Shown: one piece after another, positions 756 through 30,717 of the stretch | Layout of the letters: every line of letters starts with the position of its first letter | Position numbering within the stretch: the stretch's first letter is position 1 | Source of the DNA: a virus | Length of the DNA stretch: 31,202 nucleotides | Direction: 5' to 3' (one strand) | IMG/VR virus record: IMGVR_UViG_3300030419_001896 | Span: 1-31,202 of that record | Position numbers and translations under genes: made by a program | Notes under the pieces: generated by a model | What the model saw: the letters and a program-made list of their open reading frames with translations, nothing else | Database searches by the model: none | What the model was told of the DNA's origin: nothing

Positions 756-1181
756 ATGTCAAATGTAAATACAAACTACGAGGTGGAGCATTTCCAGTCT
801 GGAGATTGGAAAGACTTCAAGTTTCATGTACCAGAGTTCAAGTCTACAGCAGACGCAATCTCTAGGTATGGTGAAGAGAAAACGCTAGGCTTGTTGAATC
901 AACAGGTTAGCGCACGGATACGGTCTACAGTAAAGAACTCGTTGAAGCCTAACGGTAAGACGACTGAAGAACTGAGGACTGAGTTAATGTCAAAGCATCC
1001 TGACCTTGTGATCTACTCTAAGGAAGATGCAGACAAGTGGACTCCAGAAGCAGGTGGAGCAGAGACTCCCGGCAAGCTCTTTAAGAAGGCAAAGCTTGCG
1101 TTTGCGGCTGGCGATGTCGATCAGGGTAAAGAGTACCTTGCTCGTATGCAGGAACTGATGGCTACCGAACAGGAGGACTAA
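756..1181 (+). CDS. hypothetical protein, first gene after the sigma-54-like promoter
   Basis: I do not recognise this 141-residue protein. It is charged and soluble, with no signal peptide or membrane segment. An N-terminal part (to about residue 65) includes FKFHVPEFKST and a probable helix AISRYGEEKTLGLLNQQ. A middle part is rich in Lys, Glu and Thr. A helical C-terminus ends in acidic EQED. The start is the ATG preceded by AAGG nine bases upstream. It is the first gene behind the promoter at 646-662 and is followed by a structured leader (1188-1269), so it may be expressed separately from the genes after it. The acidic tail is reminiscent of small phage DNA-transaction proteins, but no function can be assigned. 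Confidence 0.8.
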   Translation: MSNVNTNYEVEHFQSGDWKDFKFHVPEFKSTADAISRYGEEKTLGLLNQQVSARIRSTVKNSLKPNGKTTEELRTELMSKHPDLVIYSKEDADKWTPEAGGAETPGKLFKKAKLAFAAGDVDQGKEYLARMQELMATEQED

Positions 1182-1187
1182 CACACA

Positions 1188-1269
1188 GGGGTAGCGTAGC
1201 ATGGTGTCGTACGAGATGTACGAACGAAGGGTTCAACGTTTACCTTTCTAGGAAACACTACGCTACCTC
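1188..1269 (+). ncRNA. structured leader element, copy 1 (micro-ORF inside a closing helix)
   Basis: GGTAGCGTAG (1190-1199) pairs perfectly with CTACGCTACC (1258-1267), extendable by G1188-C1269 and a G-U. Inside are ATGGTG, then a 6-bp hairpin TCGTAC/GTACGA with a GAGAT loop (1207-1223), then two weaker hairpins. A micro-ORF MVSYEMYERRVQRLPF runs from 1201 to a TAG at 1249-1251, with AGGGG about 9 bases upstream lying partly in the closing helix. The closing helix runs into CCTCACTT (1266-1273), which ends 8 bases before the next start codon at 1282. The same layout recurs at 6025-6106 with compensatory base changes. It is probably a cis-acting leader controlling the gene at 1282. The class is unknown to me. 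Confidence 0.7.
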
Positions 1270-1281
1270 ACTTTTATTACG

Positions 1282-1524
1282 ATGAATATTAAACAACAGA
1301 ATATAAACATAGACTACGATACAAGGCGTTCTTTATATAGGAAAGGTAAGTATACATTTCGCCTAGCTGTACCCGTTCCTACGGGTGCATGGAATGAAGA
1401 CTCTTGGATAAGGTATATTGACTCAACAGGACGGTGGCTCATCGACAATACTTGGTACAAGAGGTTAAGAGATAGCACGAATTCTAAACCTTACGAACCA
1501 GTTGGAGCCTACCGTCCAGAATAA
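1282..1524 (+). CDS. hypothetical protein downstream of structured leader 1
   Basis: This 80-residue protein is basic and unusually rich in aromatic residues (Trp and Tyr, including WNEDSWIRYID and WLIDNTWYKRL). No catalytic motif, signal or membrane segment is visible. The ATG at 1282 has no Shine-Dalgarno sequence. It lies 8 bases after the conserved CCTCACTT of the leader and 30 bases after the micro-ORF stop, so translation may be coupled to that micro-ORF. The next gene starts within ten bases of its stop. The aromatic, basic composition could suit nucleic-acid or host-protein binding, but I do not recognise the family. Confidence 0.7.
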   Translation: MNIKQQNINIDYDTRRSLYRKGKYTFRLAVPVPTGAWNEDSWIRYIDSTGRWLIDNTWYKRLRDSTNSKPYEPVGAYRPE

Positions 1525-5533: not shown

Positions 5534-6016
5534 ATGGCTAAAATAAGTCTAAAAGATATTACGGAAAGTTCGGGTAGGCCATACCTCCCGAATGGTACAT
5601 ACACGCTACGCATTGTAGATGCAGAGCGTAGGCAATCGCAAAAAGGTAACGACATGGTTGCCATAGTTGCTGAAGTTGTTGAGCCTACTGAAGTCAACGG
5701 CCCTAGCGGTTTCGTTGAAGTTAGTGGTGTTCAAGTGCGAGACTACCCTCTGATTCCTTCTAGGAGTCTGAAGGAGTATCATAAGATCTTTGACTTACCA
5801 GATGAGTTTGATCTGGATGAGTACGATGAGATCGCAGGTGGGCTTAAGGGTAAAGCTTTCAAGGCTGTACTCTACACGAAATCTGAGGCTAGGATGGACG
5901 AGATCACGGGCGACCCCATGATTGACCCTATTACTGGACAACCTATAGCGAACTATCGCTATAACGTGGAGCGCAGGTTAGAAGCTGCCGAAGACCACGA
6001 TCTGTCTGGACTCTAG
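5534..6016 (+). CDS. single-stranded DNA-binding-like protein (DUF669-type OB fold)
   Basis: The 160-residue sequence has a pattern seen in phage SSB-like proteins of the DUF669 type. PNGTYTLRIVDAERRQSQKG, then NDMVAIVAEVVEP (residues 19-52), give an OB-fold-like beta core. A helical, acidic insert follows (YHKIFDLPDEFDLDEYDEI). A later strand region, GKAFKAVLYTKSEARMDEI, and an acidic C-terminal tail, EDHDLSGL, fit the tails that recruit replication partners in SSBs. It would coat single strands during replication and annealing. The start is the ATG at 5534 in an A/T-rich leader without a ribosome site, downstream of four hairpins, so translational control is likely. The SSB assignment rests on fold pattern and context. 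Confidence 0.75.
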   Translation: MAKISLKDITESSGRPYLPNGTYTLRIVDAERRQSQKGNDMVAIVAEVVEPTEVNGPSGFVEVSGVQVRDYPLIPSRSLKEYHKIFDLPDEFDLDEYDEIAGGLKGKAFKAVLYTKSEARMDEITGDPMIDPITGQPIANYRYNVERRLEAAEDHDLSGL

Positions 6017-6024
6017 TCTCTAAC

Positions 6025-6106
6025 GAGGTTTGCGGTATGGTGCGTGGAGAGATTCTGCGACAGGTTTACAACTGTGTTGTTCCCTTCTGAAACAAACGCA
6101 AGCCTC
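6025..6106 (+). ncRNA. structured leader element, copy 2 (micro-ORF inside a closing helix)
   Basis: GAGGTTTGCG (6025-6034) pairs with CGCAAGCCTC (6097-6106) over 10 pairs including one G-U. Inside are ATGGTG, a 6-bp hairpin CGTGGA/TCTGCG with a GAGAT loop (6043-6059), a hairpin ACAG/CTGT (6060-6075) and a bulged TTGTTC/GAACAA hairpin (6077-6095). The micro-ORF MVRGEILRQVYNCVVPF runs from 6037 to a TGA at 6088-6090. GAGG of the closing helix sits 8 bases before its ATG. CCTCACTT (6103-6110) ends 7 bases before the next gene's ATG at 6118. Every pair of the GAGAT hairpin differs from copy 1 (1188-1269), yet all still pair. Confidence 0.72.
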
Positions 6107-6117
6107 ACTTAAAGAAA

Positions 6118-6291
6118 ATGAAAACAAAACAAAAGTCGGATAGCAGGGTAAAGCGTTATTGCCCTTTTATGGTTCCCGAAGGTTTGCACCATAAGGTTAA
6201 GAAACGCGCAAAACAAAAACACTTGAGGCTCAACCAATACGTGCCTCTCCTATTAAATGCAGGTTTAAAAACAGAAGATGACAGTCATTGA
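6118..6291 (+). CDS. ribbon-helix-helix (Arc/CopG-like) DNA-binding protein
   Basis: This 57-residue basic protein contains a clear ribbon-helix-helix pattern. A short strand ending in FMVPEGLH is followed by the helix HKVKKRAKQKH, a turn at LRLNQY and the helix VPLLLNAGL. The family forms dimers that insert an antiparallel beta ribbon into the major groove, usually as transcriptional repressors. It starts 7 bases after structured leader copy 2, so its synthesis is probably controlled by that element. It overlaps the next gene by 14 bases. An autoregulator of the early module is a reasonable inference. The call comes from pattern alone, since the protein is short. Confidence 0.7.
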   Translation: MKTKQKSDSRVKRYCPFMVPEGLHHKVKKRAKQKHLRLNQYVPLLLNAGLKTEDDSH

Positions 6292-24441: not shown

Positions 24442-27400
24442 TTATCCCTCAAGCGTCTTCACCCGCGCAGACAGTTCCTGAACCGCCTTAATCAGTGGCA
24501 TTACCAGATTGCCATACTTCAATGACAACTTGCCGTTGGGCGATTCATTCACCAGATCGAACTCCACCCCCGCTTCAGTCATCGCGGTCTGTACGTCTTG
24601 CGCTATTAGGCCAAGCCGCACTGTGTCATCATCTTCTGGTCGCGCATCGGCTGGCACTGTGACTGTTTCGTAAACAGCTTCTTTAGCTTCAACGGCTTCT
24701 TTTACCAAACGGCGTTCAATAACTTCTTCAACTGCTGGCGATGCTAGCGTGACAACCCGTGTCTCCGTCCAAGCTTCTTTAGCTGCTGTTACCAATCGAC
24801 GTTCGGTGTGTTCCTCTTTGGCTTCGCTGACCAGCACACGTTCAATGACTTCTTCAACAGCCGGTATGGTAATCGTTTCAGTGACTTCATCTTGTGCCTC
24901 TTGCACAACTACCGTCTCGCGCACTTCTTCCCGTGCCTCTTGGACGATGTACTCTTCCATCACCGGACATTGGTGAATCACCTGTTCAGTGACAGCAGCT
25001 TTTGCTTCAACGGCTTCTTCGATGATTTCAGTTCTGGCAGCTTCGATTTCAACTGTCTCCATTACTGGATCACCGTTTTCATCGACAACACCGTTGCCGT
25101 CATCGTCTAGTTTCTGACGTTCCTCGGTGACTGCTGGAATTTCTCGCGTAACTGCATCCTTCGCTTCAACTGCGTGTTTAATAATATTCAAACACGGTGT
25201 ACCGTCTTCATTAACAACTGGGTGATCGTCGTAAAGTGGTATGCGCTCGATGCGAGTGACTGTCTCGGTAGAGACTTTGCGGATGTAGTTATTGCCTTCG
25301 CCTTTAACCATCTCCACCTTCTCAACTTCTTCAGTGACTTCGCGTTCGTCGTGCTTGTGGCGTTCGCCTTTGATTTCTTCCCGCGCCTCTTGAGTGACAC
25401 GTTCCTCAGTAATTTCCTCACGCGCTTCTTGAACAACCCGCGTTTCTGTGCGCTCGGCTTCTGCACGAACTACCACACGATCTTCATACACTGCGTCTTC
25501 TGCGGGATGCACGATGTCCTCGTAAACAGCGTCTTCTGCTGGGTGTTCGATTGTCTCAGTAACTTCCTCAACAGCGGCTCGTGCTTCTACAACAACAACG
25601 TCCTCGTAAACTGCATCAGCAGCTTCTACCGCTTCACTGACAGTTCGTTGTTCTGTTGATTCTTTAAATCTTGCTTCAGCAATTGGATCTGGAAAATCAG
25701 CGGGATTTATTCGCTTGTAACTAACTGCTGCTAGTTTATTGATGAAATCCAAACCAACCGTACTCGCCGCTACATCTTTCTTAATGCGACTATCAGATGG
25801 CGAAGAAATAGATGTGTCATAACAGTGCAACCCAGAAACGCTACTGTTACCCAACATAACAGTGTTGTCGCCTTGACCAACTGCACCATAACCAAGAACC
25901 GTTTCGTTAATAATTCCAGTAGTAGCAGACCCGCGACTAAAGCCACCAATGTAAGTAGACATTGTTGCTTCTTCCAATTCGTCACCAGCGGATGTACCTG
26001 CCGCATCAAACATACCGGCTTTAAATCCGACAGCGACATTATCATCAGCACTATCAGAATTAAGCGCGTGAAATGCAAATGCACCAATAGCCGTATTTTG
26101 CGCCTCACCGCCATTAGCATCTTGAAGTGCGCTACAACCAACCACCGTATTGTGGTTAGCAGCTTCATCCCCAGCAGAAAGATTAGCTGCTGCCATTCGA
26201 CCAACAGCCGTGTTGCCAGCACCTTGTGCAGTTTTCAGCGCGTTGTAACCCACCGCCGTATTTTCTGAATCATCAGCAAGCGCATTCCCCGCTTCGTGGC
26301 CGATCAGCACGTTCTGTGAGCCGCTGCTAACTAAATAACCAGCTTGATGGCCAATAGCTAGATTGATTGAAGCAGCAGTGTTTTGTGCAACGAGTGCTTC
26401 TGTCCCGATGGCGATACACGATTGGCAAGCACCAGTTGTACCACCTAACGCAGTCTTGCCGATAGCGATATTGTGATTTGCAGCACCAATCATCCCAACG
26501 GCAGATTGATAACCAATGGCGACGTTGTAATCACCCGAAGTCATTACTGCGCCAGCTTGTTTGCCTATAATTACATTGCCGGGGCCAGATAGCGCAGCAG
26601 CACCCGCGCTTTTGCCGATAACTGTATTGTCATTACCAGTACAACTGCGACCAGCCGCAGAACCCATTATGACATTGTTGTTACCAAGCGCAGCAGAGTC
26701 GCCAGCAGCGTGACCAAGCACGGCGTTGTCCGAACCGCCAGTTATGGCATTTCCGGCACTGTAGCCAACAAGCGTATTAGAATCGCCTCCTTCAATACTA
26801 GCACCTGCTAGACCACCAACTGCGGTGTTCTTAACATCACTGTTTTGTGCAGTCAGCGCACGATCTCCAATTGCTACGCAGTAATCTGAACCGGCACAAT
26901 CTGCGCCTAGTGCATCTCGACCAATCGCAATGTTGTAATGTTCTGCACCATTGCAACCGTCCATCGCTTTATAGCCAATAGCTACGTTGCCAGCATTATC
27001 AGTAAACAACTTACCAGCGTTGTGTCCTATCGCTACATTCTGTGAGGCTGTGTCTGCATCTGGCCCCATTGCGTCCATCCCAATTATGATATTGGAATTA
27101 GCGGTAGTCCCAGCTTTACCAGCATCATTGCCGATAATCACATTGTATTGACCGGCAGCACCACCAGAAGCAACACCCACTCCCGTACCCCAAGCAGCCT
27201 TACCAATAACTATATTGTTCTGTGCCGTAGTAATTTCTTTACAAGCAGAACTACCGATGATTGTGTTATTTTCTCCAGTATCTAAATCTTCACCGGCATA
27301 CGATCCCAATATGGTATTATCGTGGCCTTCCGTGATTGCGTAGCCAGTTCTGTGACCAATACAAGTGTTATCATCACCGTAACCGTCTGTGTCACCGCCA

Positions 27401-30400
27401 AACACACCATTACCACCTGCTTCATATCCGACTGCTGTACAACGTATACCACCGTAATCACTGCCAGCTGTTGCTCGTAGATTACTCAGTGCTTTATAAC
27501 CAATCGCAGTGTTTTTTGATTGGTCACGGTTTTGGTCTTCCAATGCATTGTAACCAATAGCCACACACCCATCTGCACCAGACGATTCTGAACCAAGCGC
27601 ATCACTACCAATTGCAATGTTGGAATGTTCACCAGTATTAGCTGCGTCCAATGCTTGCGAACCAATAGCGATGTTGTGGTAATTATCTGTAAAGTTTTCA
27701 CCAGTACCCGTCCCGATAGCAATATTGGCATATCCTATCCCTACATCTTTTAACGCCTTGTATCCAATTGCGACATTATCATTTCCACTTGCACCGTAAA
27801 AAGTCAACGTAGTGCCACCCGCAACAGTATCAGCTACGGCTTGATTTATTACAAACACTTGCGGGTTAGCGGCAGCAGACGCAACCGTGGTAACATAAGT
27901 TCCCGGCTTAATGTTGCTACCAGTAACAGCCATACCAACTAATATGTTAGCATTGGCTCCGTCCATTGTTATGGTCGTCCCGCTACTTATTGCCGATGCT
28001 TGCGTGTTGTCTGTAAAAGATGTGCCTTGCATTGCCTCTCGACCAATTGCAACACACCAATCGGCATCGCCAGCATATTGACCTGCGCTTCGGCCAATAA
28101 GTACGTTACTTGTACCTACAATATTTGCACCCGCATTAGAACCAACAGCTACGTTATAGTAATTATCAGAAATATTGGCTAATGCACTGTAACCAATGGC
28201 AACAGTTTCATCCGCAGAACTAGCGTCCTCTAGTGCAAAACTACCAATGGCAACATTTTTACTTCCAGTTGTAAATTTACCCAAAGCTGCGTAACCTATT
28301 GCAGTATCATAGTCACCAGTCGGCGCAGTTGTACCATCGCCTTTCATTGTTTGATGACCAATTGCAACAGTCGCAGCGGCATTTGTGGCATAACGACCAC
28401 TCTCATAACCAATGAAGATTGAACTATCAGACGTTAAAGAACTACCTGCGTAACTACCAATACCGATGGAATATCCAACATTGGCAGTTTGCAGTGCTGC
28501 GTGTCCAACAGCTATGCAGTTTGAACCAATCGATGCGGCTGAAAACGCACTGTGTCCAATTGCAACATTTGAAGCACCGCTAGTGCAGTTATCTAGCGCA
28601 TAACTTCCGATGGCAATATTCTTGTCGCCAGATGGTTTGGTGGCATTAGCTGTTTCACCGCTTACATCACTCCAGTTTGCGCCAGATAATGCACCGTAAC
28701 CAATGGCAATAGAATCGTCCGTACCATCACAATATCTGCCAGCGTGTGCGCCCAATGCAACATTTCGTGCTTCAGTATTATCTATGGTAGCAAACGCCTC
28801 GTAGCCAACAGCAGTATTTGCTGCGCCAGTTGGCAACGCGCCCAATGCGCCCTTACCAACCGCAGTCAAATAAGCCGCACTTGTTGCTGCATCTGCTGCA
28901 CCAGAACCTACGGCGGTTGCACTGCTTCCAGTGAATGCATAGAGCGCACTAAAACCAAGCGCAGTGTTGTTATCACCGCAGTTACCAGTTCCCAATGCCT
29001 CAACACCCATCGCCACGTTGTTTGCACCGTCATCTGTTGTAGCTAGTGAACCCTTACCTACTGTGGTGTTGTTCAATCCGCTTGTCAGCGAATCACCCGC
29101 ACCACTGCCTACTGCTGTTGCATTGCTTCCGGTAAATAACAACAATGCGTTTTTGCCTATTCCGGTATTATCACTAACACAATCCGCGTTTAACGCTTGA
29201 AATCCAACAGCCGTATTTTGACCGCCATCAACTGTTCCCAGACTTAACGCGCCAACAGCCGTATTGTCGCTGCCAATGGTACACGCATCCATCGCACCTT
29301 TTCCGACTGCTGTTAAATATGTACCGCCACTAGCCGCAGTTGCCGAATCTAACGCACCACTACCAACAGCGGTTGCGTTACTTCCGGCGAATACAAGCAG
29401 TGCATTGTTACCTACCGCTGTGTTATCATTAACGGCAGCAGCACTTAATGCCTGTTGTCCAACCGCAGTATTACGCAGTGCGCCAGTAGCAGCACCATCA
29501 AGCGCAGCAAAACCTAACGCGGTATTGTTCTGGCCAGTTTCAATTGTTTGACCAGCACCCGAACCAACTGCTGTGTTGTAAGCACCAGTTGTAATTGCAA
29601 AGCCAGCGTGATAGCCAACAGCAGTACAATGATTTGCGTCAGCGTGATTCAACCCACCCAACGCACCAGTACCGACTGCTGTTAAGCCATCAACATCAAC
29701 AGCTAAATCTGCTGCACCAGATCCAATTGCAACTGCATTGCTGCCAGTCCACGCAAGTAATGCGTGCTTTCCGACTGCGGTATTATCATCAGCGCAGTTA
29801 CCAGCCAAAGAACCATAACCTACTGCTGTACAGGCTGAGCCTCCTGTCGTTGCTGTTAAAGCTGAACTACCAACTGCGGTGTTGTAATGATCGGTTGCAC
29901 CATTTAACGCACCTAATGCTTCATTACCTATTGCAACATTATGCGTTGATGAAGCGTGTGAAGCATCCAGCGCATTCTGACCAACAGCAGTATTTGAATT
30001 GTGTCCACCCAAACCGTGCCCAATGTCCAGCGAGCCGACTGTGATGCCGCCACCACTGCCAATGCTAAGTTGCTTTGTACCACCAGTGTAAAAATTCATT
30101 ACATCGGTTTCACCGCCAGCGTTATGCGCGTAACTTATTCTACCAGTTCCAGCCGAAGTATCGGAAAAGTAAATGTGCGCTTCGCTACCTGTTCCGGTTG
30201 TGTTTACAAATTCCAGCTTGGTGTCGTGACCAGACCCAGTGCTTTCAATCTGCATCTGCGCTGTCGTGGCGTTTGTTATTTTGACTGCGCCAGACGAGTC
30301 GATGACCATACGAGTAGCCCGATCGCCTCCTGTTGCTTCGGTACTAAATTCAAGTTTACCAGCGTCAACTGCACCGTCTTGTGCTGCACCGATATGGCAC

Positions 30401-30717
30401 AAATACTTGTCACCGTCCTGTGCGCCAAAATAAATATTTCCCAATCCACCCGAAGTAGCCCCGGCTGTGCGCGTCAGCAAAATATCTGGCTCAGTTGCGT
30501 CGTTAACTTGTATATGTCGAGCCGGTGCAGCGACTCCAATACCCAAGCGAGCTGGATCACCTGCGCTGCCACCTTCTACAATATAAATACCATCCGCACC
30601 ACCATCAGACGGCTGCCATTGCATGATCTCACCAGTACCATCTGAACGGATGATAGGTTCGTTCTCGTAAGAAACGCCTGTAGTGTGAATCGAACTTTGT
30701 TGAGTAATCCTAGCCAT
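24442..30717 (-). CDS. giant trimeric tail fibre with YadA-head-type repeats and S74 chaperone
   Basis: This 2091-residue fibre has an N-terminal region (1-220) of short beta segments such as YFGAQDGDKYLCHIGAAQDG and LEFVNTTGTGSEAHIYFSD. About 70 repeats of the NTAVGxxAL / NVAIGxxAG type follow (residues about 235-1620), the left-handed beta-roll unit of YadA heads. A non-repeat module interrupts the array (about 27745-28010). The C-terminal domain begins SPSDSRIKKD (S1641, D1642, K1646), the S74 auto-cleaving intramolecular chaperone motif. It resumes at GLIAQDVQ (about 2036) after an insertion and ends in a trimerising helix, VKTLEG. The fibre should fold and trimerise with S74 help, then cut itself. 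No Shine-Dalgarno sequence is visible near the start. Confidence 0.92.
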   Translation of the reverse strand: MARITQQSSIHTTGVSYENEPIIRSDGTGEIMQWQPSDGGADGIYIVEGGSAGDPARLGIGVAAPARHIQVNDATEPDILLTRTAGATSGGLGNIYFGAQDGDKYLCHIGAAQDGAVDAGKLEFSTEATGGDRATRMVIDSSGAVKITNATTAQMQIESTGSGHDTKLEFVNTTGTGSEAHIYFSDTSAGTGRISYAHNAGGETDVMNFYTGGTKQLSIGSGGGITVGSLDIGHGLGGHNSNTAVGQNALDASHASSTHNVAIGNEALGALNGATDHYNTAVGSSALTATTGGSACTAVGYGSLAGNCADDNTAVGKHALLAWTGSNAVAIGSGAADLAVDVDGLTAVGTGALGGLNHADANHCTAVGYHAGFAITTGAYNTAVGSGAGQTIETGQNNTALGFAALDGAATGALRNTAVGQQALSAAAVNDNTAVGNNALLVFAGSNATAVGSGALDSATAASGGTYLTAVGKGAMDACTIGSDNTAVGALSLGTVDGGQNTAVGFQALNADCVSDNTGIGKNALLLFTGSNATAVGSGAGDSLTSGLNNTTVGKGSLATTDDGANNVAMGVEALGTGNCGDNNTALGFSALYAFTGSSATAVGSGAADAATSAAYLTAVGKGALGALPTGAANTAVGYEAFATIDNTEARNVALGAHAGRYCDGTDDSIAIGYGALSGANWSDVSGETANATKPSGDKNIAIGSYALDNCTSGASNVAIGHSAFSAASIGSNCIAVGHAALQTANVGYSIGIGSYAGSSLTSDSSIFIGYESGRYATNAAATVAIGHQTMKGDGTTAPTGDYDTAIGYAALGKFTTGSKNVAIGSFALEDASSADETVAIGYSALANISDNYYNVAVGSNAGANIVGTSNVLIGRSAGQYAGDADWCVAIGREAMQGTSFTDNTQASAISSGTTITMDGANANILVGMAVTGSNIKPGTYVTTVASAAANPQVFVINQAVADTVAGGTTLTFYGASGNDNVAIGYKALKDVGIGYANIAIGTGTGENFTDNYHNIAIGSQALDAANTGEHSNIAIGSDALGSESSGADGCVAIGYNALEDQNRDQSKNTAIGYKALSNLRATAGSDYGGIRCTAVGYEAGGNGVFGGDTDGYGDDNTCIGHRTGYAITEGHDNTILGSYAGEDLDTGENNTIIGSSACKEITTAQNNIVIGKAAWGTGVGVASGGAAGQYNVIIGNDAGKAGTTANSNIIIGMDAMGPDADTASQNVAIGHNAGKLFTDNAGNVAIGYKAMDGCNGAEHYNIAIGRDALGADCAGSDYCVAIGDRALTAQNSDVKNTAVGGLAGASIEGGDSNTLVGYSAGNAITGGSDNAVLGHAAGDSAALGNNNVIMGSAAGRSCTGNDNTVIGKSAGAAALSGPGNVIIGKQAGAVMTSGDYNVAIGYQSAVGMIGAANHNIAIGKTALGGTTGACQSCIAIGTEALVAQNTAASINLAIGHQAGYLVSSGSQNVLIGHEAGNALADDSENTAVGYNALKTAQGAGNTAVGRMAAANLSAGDEAANHNTVVGCSALQDANGGEAQNTAIGAFAFHALNSDSADDNVAVGFKAGMFDAAGTSAGDELEEATMSTYIGGFSRGSATTGIINETVLGYGAVGQGDNTVMLGNSSVSGLHCYDTSISSPSDSRIKKDVAASTVGLDFINKLAAVSYKRINPADFPDPIAEARFKESTEQRTVSEAVEAADAVYEDVVVVEARAAVEEVTETIEHPAEDAVYEDIVHPAEDAVYEDRVVVRAEAERTETRVVQEAREEITEERVTQEAREEIKGERHKHDEREVTEEVEKVEMVKGEGNNYIRKVSTETVTRIERIPLYDDHPVVNEDGTPCLNIIKHAVEAKDAVTREIPAVTEERQKLDDDGNGVVDENGDPVMETVEIEAARTEIIEEAVEAKAAVTEQVIHQCPVMEEYIVQEAREEVRETVVVQEAQDEVTETITIPAVEEVIERVLVSEAKEEHTERRLVTAAKEAWTETRVVTLASPAVEEVIERRLVKEAVEAKEAVYETVTVPADARPEDDDTVRLGLIAQDVQTAMTEAGVEFDLVNESPNGKLSLKYGNLVMPLIKAVQELSARVKTLEG
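24630..25665 (-). repeat. Glu/Val-rich repeat insertion inside the S74 chaperone
   Basis: Between AVSYKR (Y1667) and GLIAQDVQ lie about 345 residues that do not fit the S74 fold. They are strings of short repeats about 12-13 residues long, for example VVQEAREEITEER then VTQEAREEIKGER, and HPAEDAVYED twice. Related units such as VVVQEAQDEVTET, LVSEAKEEHTERR and EEVIER recur, with single non-repeat pieces between them. The insertion keeps the frame. Confidence 0.8.
25850..30015 (-). repeat. YadA-head-type repeat array in the fibre
   Basis: About 70 degenerate units (I count 71-74) of the type [NC][TVI][AVI][VI]G..AL or ..AG, each roughly 14-25 residues apart, fill the region. The units differ in the middle positions but keep N, A/V, G and the A-L/G tail. 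The array codes for a single continuous domain, not for separate genes. Confidence 0.85.
27745..28010 (-). other. non-repeat module interrupting the fibre repeats
   Basis: The translated segment runs from SFTDNTQASAISSGTTITMD, through ILVGMAVTGSNIKPGTYVTT, to QVFVINQAVADTVAGGTTLT, and is about 70 residues long. It keeps the reading frame and resembles a short beta module found in other tail fibres (GMxVxGxxIxxGTYV). It may act as a side domain on the beta roll. Confidence 0.6.

Follow-up and report, generated by a model that had tools for sequence, protein, structure and literature searches.

A widespread, strongly covarying three-way-junction RNA behind phage genes and beside tRNAs, possibly a punctuation element of transcripts

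Two elements in the window (the whole 31,202-nt stretch analysed here, from IMG/VR virus record IMGVR_UViG_3300030419_001896) are copies 1 and 2 of one structurally conserved RNA of ~75 nt, and this RNA belongs to a family that numbered 208 distinct elements once the protein-based and pattern-based searches were complete. The family is apparently undescribed and new at the level of an RNA family, although its mechanism could prove to be a known one. We tentatively read it as a cis-acting punctuation RNA that separates, trims or insulates transcript segments, possibly by self-cleavage. The layout shared by its members is P1 – NAUGGUG – P2 (6 bp, loop GAGAN) – AC – P3 (variable) – (U)GAAACA – P1', in which three helices, free in sequence, hold ~18 fixed core nucleotides.

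In the window (Table 1), the closing helix P1 read from the sequence comprises 12 bp in copy 1 (1188-1199 with 1258-1269, one G-U pair) and 10 bp in copy 2 (6025-6034 with 6097-6106, one U-G pair). The GAGAT hairpins of the two copies differ in 6 of 6 pairs and all six still pair, with two G-U pairs in copy 2. Copy 1 folded at -34.5 kcal/mol (z -4.4), and none of 200 shuffles folded equally well; for copy 2 the folding signal was lower (z -2.0 to -2.7) and the GAGAT hairpin is missing from the minimum-free-energy structure, so that it is placed there by comparison alone. When covariance model R1 was run over the window, it retrieved exactly copies 1 and 2 (E 9e-19 and 1e-14), in agreement with the earlier view that they are paralogous. 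No tRNA was found in the window with ARAGORN or the Rfam tRNA model and the elements are not cloverleaf tRNAs; in other loci the same tools never called the elements tRNA, although they did call their neighbours. Elsewhere in the window, a partial gene for a sigma-54 activator AAA+ domain stands at the start of this phage contig (1-528; PF00158, E 3e-28), which raises the possibility of phage action on sigma-54 promoters. The minus strand at 24442-30717 encodes a 2091-aa protein, likely a tail-fibre protein, that carries dozens of repeats of the TAVG type and matches the Peptidase_S74 chaperone domain.

Table 1. Coordinates of the two RNA copies, their parts and the adjoining genes in the window.
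Feature	Position	Strand	Basis or remark
141-aa gene upstream of copy 1	756..1181	+	no Pfam/PHROG match; adjoins element in relatives too
Copy 1, whole element	1188..1269	+	covariance model R1: 1189-1269, 63.6 bits, E 9.4e-19
Copy 1 P1, 5' strand	1188..1199	+	sequence; P1 covariation in family, 85.4% of cells paired
Copy 1 J1/2, C-AUGGUG	1200..1206	+	alignment A2
Copy 1 P2 hairpin, 6 bp, loop GAGAU 1213-1217	1207..1223	+	own fold; all six family P2 pairs covary
Copy 1 J2/3, AC	1224..1225	+	alignment A2
Copy 1 P3 hairpin, variable arm	1226..1248	+	own fold; family P3 81.7% of cells paired
Copy 1 J3/1, GAAACA	1252..1257	+	alignment A2
Copy 1 P1, 3' strand	1258..1269	+	sequence
80-aa gene downstream of copy 1	1282..1524	+	phrog_1871; weak DUF5484
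SSB-like gene upstream of copy 2	5534..6016	+	phrog_378; DUF669 slightly under cut-off
Copy 2, whole element	6025..6106	+	covariance model R1: 6026-6106, 51.5 bits, E 1.1e-14
Copy 2 P1, 5' strand	6025..6034	+	sequence, fold
Copy 2 J1/2, U-AUGGUG	6036..6042	+	alignment A2
Copy 2 P2 hairpin, 6 bp, loop GAGAU 6049-6053	6043..6059	+	comparison with homologues
Copy 2 J2/3, AC	6060..6061	+	alignment A2
Copy 2 P3 arm, AGG...CCT base	6062..6085	+	alignment A2, family covariation
Copy 2 J3/1, GAAACA	6089..6094	+	alignment A2
Copy 2 P1, 3' strand	6097..6106	+	sequence, fold
57-aa gene downstream of copy 2	6118..6291	+	weak Arc-like repressor match

The pattern scans for the family kept only the core fixed (AUGGUG, GAGA, AC and GAAACA) and left all helices free, and matches occurred all over IMG/VR as well as in genomes of bacteria and archaea. 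After a pairing filter, 129 representatives below 82% similarity were retained, of which 95 were aligned (alignment A2). Standard pairs filled 88.6% of pair cells among these 95 homologues, as compared with 51.2% after shuffling and 37-50% in slid structures; the covariation score reached 0.944, while shuffles gave 0.230 and slid structures no more than 0.258; and 21 of 21 pairs in P1, P2 and P3 changed on both sides. By helix, paired cells made up 99.1% (P2), 85.4% (P1) and 81.7% (P3), the values for P1 and P2 being somewhat inflated by the filter, whereas P3 was never a filter criterion; the invariance of the core nucleotides is in part a product of the search pattern. When no pairing filter was applied, at least five of the six P2 pairs formed in 97 of 104 distinct viral matches (chance ~3%, our own estimate) and an uninterrupted P1 of at least 5 pairs in 57 of the 104 (chance ~1.5%, likewise our own estimate). 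A nested three-way junction suffices for the observed covariation. These scores, together with the rewritten but still paired GAGAT hairpins, bear out the earlier proposal of a real RNA structure. That proposal had been made to depend on matches outside the genome of the window, and more than 200 distinct homologues were found.

Members scored up to 80 bits with R1, with E-values to 4e-24, in dozens of unrelated phages. Bacterial carriers are scattered over Acidobacteria, Verrucomicrobia, Planctomycetes, Streptomyces and Nocardia, and the archaeal carriers are two thaumarchaeal MAGs. Acidobacteriaceae KBS 83, Terriglobus albidus and Geminisphaera colitermitum TAV2 are carriers available in culture. 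Because only 3 of 297 genomes scanned in the phylum of an acidobacterial carrier, 3 of 289 in that of a verrucomicrobial carrier and 1 of 398 in that of the archaeal carrier contained the element, cellular carriage is sporadic and the family is mostly viral. The first of the thaumarchaeal MAGs (JACPSZ01, 1.7 Mb; G001, loci L371-L383) held 19 matches at E ≤ 0.01, and the second (JACPBJ01; G002) held five copies. Repeated pattern matches in Pelagibacter, Komagataeibacter and Bacillus were without the pairing and were dropped as false positives. A search of 34 concatenated elements against 50,697 phage records returned no match at E ≤ 1e-3, blastn being weak for short divergent RNAs. The earlier statement that no named RNA family has this layout also held: no Rfam 15 family reached its gathering threshold anywhere in the window, and nothing overlapped the element in nine other loci (E ≤ 10) or in two further copy-bearing loci (E ≤ 1). 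No description of this RNA was found in the literature, where subscription papers and supplements lay outside our coverage, so that an uncatalogued published motif is possible.

The position of the elements is recurrent. P1 started 1-8 nt past a stop codon in 43 of the 129 representatives, a sharp peak with ORFs called simply, and copies 1 and 2 start 6 and 8 nt past the stop codons of the 141-aa and SSB-like genes, respectively, with small genes following both. The upstream genes are mutually unrelated (SSB of several families, major head protein, head maturation protease, HU, RusA and Sak4), often with an abundant protein as their product (SSB, major head protein, head protease, HU). Downstream come either tRNAs or protein genes that vary. 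A tRNA follows at 3-7 nt in ten members, these being all ten close cases; five lie 0-9 nt downstream of a tRNA, and some sit between tRNAs, a few of the tRNA cases being near-duplicates. Tandem copies were mostly 5-15 nt apart (six cases), and Acidobacteriaceae KBS 83 has a tandem pair behind the capsid and protease region of a prophage. A triple tandem array occupies 260 bases of a 124-kb virus record (L460:7602-7861). In MAG JACPSZ01, approximately half of the copies stand downstream of expanded PQQ-dehydrogenase paralogues, 22-91 nt past the stop; some copies there are preceded by a TATA-like TTATTTA.

Synteny was examined in 35 IMG/VR loci collected with the window's DNA polymerase, a protein-based set free of RNA-pattern bias. 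Copy 2 stood behind the SSB-like gene in nearly all loci with ~83-89% polymerase identity, and copy 1 stood behind the 141-aa gene in every relative covering that region. The 80-aa gene downstream of copy 1 was absent there among relatives keeping the element and was seen only in the window's genome, and in three loci (L013, L014 and L020) copy 2 was followed directly by the gene that stands second in the window. Across relatives it is the upstream gene that accompanies the element, and the gene on its downstream side varies. In five relatives at ~60% polymerase identity, the SSB slot held a different three-way-junction RNA, and in both of these that cover the copy-1 slot an intrinsic-terminator-like hairpin occupied it, which suggests a 3'-end role for the slot. 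These hairpins (L025:2885-2990 and L026:4946-5060; 13 bp, T-rich 3' side) replace copy 1 behind the same upstream gene. The second three-way-junction RNA has the core GG-UACA / loop UAUUAAGAU / UUGAUCG-CC and ~18 distinct examples (L026:9089-9165 and L024:1729-1805, also L494, L495, L503, L505, L508 and L509); some of its loci belong to phages distantly related to that of the window, and there it lies behind the SSB gene. It is tandem in several loci, one copy has a ~26-bp closing helix, and it has no Rfam match. The protein-based relatives Tunturi_3 and ctz7E20 carried no copy of the family's RNA.

Because any flanking gene is tolerated, no downstream gene is fixed and the elements are packed against stops, tRNAs and their own copies, the RNA reads as a mark between transcript segments, and action in cis with a role in processing is probable. 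By punctuating polycistronic transcripts immediately past a stop codon or flush with a tRNA, it would allow the RNA on either side to be separated, trimmed or insulated, and tRNAs and the messages of abundant proteins (SSB, capsid, HU) would obtain ends of their own. Self-cleavage would be the most economical route for so small an RNA without a partner gene, and is the simplest one given the compact fixed core; we hold it more weakly, as a tentative further step. Its size, fixed nucleotides and multistem junction meet criteria applied elsewhere for picking ribozyme candidates (PMC10085705), and tRNA-adjacent self-cleaving RNAs in phages provide a precedent (PMC10879173). A pyrimidine precedes the A of AUGGUG (C or U in 121 of the 129 representatives), and the likeliest scissile bond is predicted at this unpaired step, where P1 meets J1/2 (1200/1201, C/A, in copy 1 and 6036/6037 in copy 2). 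That the family is a so far undescribed class of natural ribozyme, cleaving itself between genes and tRNAs in many unrelated phages and at least one archaeal lineage, is on balance unlikely. Permuted forms occur in hammerhead, twister and HDV-like ribozymes, and against a ribozyme reading no clear circular permutant was found here: 103 stretches matched the pattern with P3 open, and wherever P2 was good the stretch proved to be an ordinary or a tandem copy. A fixed GAGAN loop, moreover, is odd for a simple ribozyme and could instead make a protein or tertiary contact. Also against the favoured reading, the copies in the archaeon lie 22-91 nt past the stop and behind a T-rich stretch, which could be a promoter or a terminator.

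Theta ribozymes (HDV-like; PMC10879173) are likewise small, widespread, tRNA-packed phage RNAs with a proposed part in transcript processing. However, the present family forms a three-way junction with an AUGGUG/GAGAN/GAAACA core rather than a nested double pseudoknot, it lies mostly behind protein genes, and most of its tRNA cases are 5' of the tRNA rather than at its 3' end. A theta/HDV-like ribozyme would be expected to cleave within 5 nt of a tRNA 3' end; five family members lie 0-9 nt past a tRNA and ten lie 3-7 nt ahead of one. No Rfam HDV-class match occurred in the window or the nine loci, and the RNA is not a member of the theta family. It resembles the hammerhead ribozyme in its three-way junction, its free-sequence helices, its fixed junction nucleotides and a length of 50-80 nt, yet its junctions in the 95 aligned members are NAUGGUG, AC and UGAAACA instead of CUGANGA, GAAA and NUH, and no Rfam hammerhead model matched the window or the nine loci. 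The hairpin ribozyme has the same GAAACA strand in its loop B, but the partner strand GUAUAUUAC is missing from the family, as is loop A, and there is no Rfam match. Mu-gpT-DE and similar phage downstream-element RNAs are structured and lie directly 3' of phage structural genes, as several members do here, whereas the three-way-junction family is independent of any one gene family and has no Rfam match to them.

The nearest rival is a non-catalytic element, either a host-nuclease processing site or an exonuclease block that stabilises the 3' end, and we regard it as unlikely but serious. The placement flush with stop codons and tRNAs, the upstream genes for abundant proteins and the substitution by a terminator-like hairpin in distant relatives all suit such a site. 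RNase III, RNase P and blocking hairpins, however, need fewer fixed nucleotides than the ~18 of the junction and loop, and archaea, where the element also occurs, have few such nucleases in common with bacteria. Ranked after it, and improbable, is a processive antitermination RNA that binds RNA polymerase and lets the enzyme traverse untranslated regions, tRNA arrays among them, in the manner of the HK022 put and EAR RNAs. The lambdoid put and EAR RNAs are structured cis RNAs present in several copies per phage or operon without a dedicated protein, features in which the family resembles them; its multi-stem form and suitable size, its frequent occurrence more than once per genome, its place upstream of tRNAs and at borders of coding and non-coding sequence and its freedom from any gene family would fit as well. 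Yet the elements lie flush after single genes within coding operons, downstream of late head genes and against tRNAs, not at the operon head, they have no sequence or Rfam match to put or EAR, and their presence in archaea would require a common polymerase contact. A trans-acting or decoy small RNA, released as a separate molecule from tRNA-like arrays, has a small probability. Tight packing among tRNAs at a tRNA-like length, tandem copies and, in our own reading, the TATA-like sequence before several archaeal copies speak for it, but P3 and the helices are free, so that no fixed antisense or recognition sequence exists beyond the core.

Very improbable is control of the downstream gene by a metabolite riboswitch or a micro-ORF translational switch, the latter being the role that the first-pass annotation had proposed. 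With its fixed junction nucleotides, the three-way junction does look aptamer-like, and a small gene follows each window copy. In addition, ATGGTG frames of 16 and 17 codons ending in Pro-Phe-stop are present in copies 1 and 2, and CCTCACTT lies 8 nt (copy 1) and 7 nt (copy 2) upstream of the next ATG, as had been described; both observations stand for the window but were not confirmed for the family. Among the 129 non-redundant members, the conserved AUG is in general not a start codon: the frame that it opens ran for 3-366 codons, stopped inside the element in 59 and ended in Pro-Phe in 1. An SD-like sequence preceded the AUG in 28, and the SD-like P1 strand was likewise not confirmed for the family. 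The missing SD before 1282 and 6118 is nothing special, since most early genes of the window phage have none. With short frame, start signal and stop not conserved in 129 members, a leader-peptide attenuator or micro-ORF switch was rejected; a part for micro-ORF translation in the mechanism is not supported, and the presence of the micro-ORF inside the RNA is a coincidence. Coupling to the downstream gene was ruled out by the synteny in relatives, in which that gene is lost or swapped and the element kept; there is no constant downstream gene class, and the family also occurs before and between tRNAs, where there is no translation. An unusual intrinsic terminator, with P1 followed by a T-rich tract, is scarcely credible: at least 6 T in the 10-nt window after P1 were counted in 13% of members versus 2.8% of controls, but most members have no T run and transcription has to reach tRNAs 3-7 nt further on.

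Few structured RNA classes are at once widespread, strongly covarying and absent from Rfam; this one spans unrelated phages, several bacterial phyla and archaea, and the alignment and covariance model make it directly searchable. Whatever the mechanism of the favoured punctuation RNA, its position points to a general way for phages to mark RNA ends, and if the family is a self-cleaving class, an RNA of ~75 nt with no visible partner gene would set RNA ends during infection.
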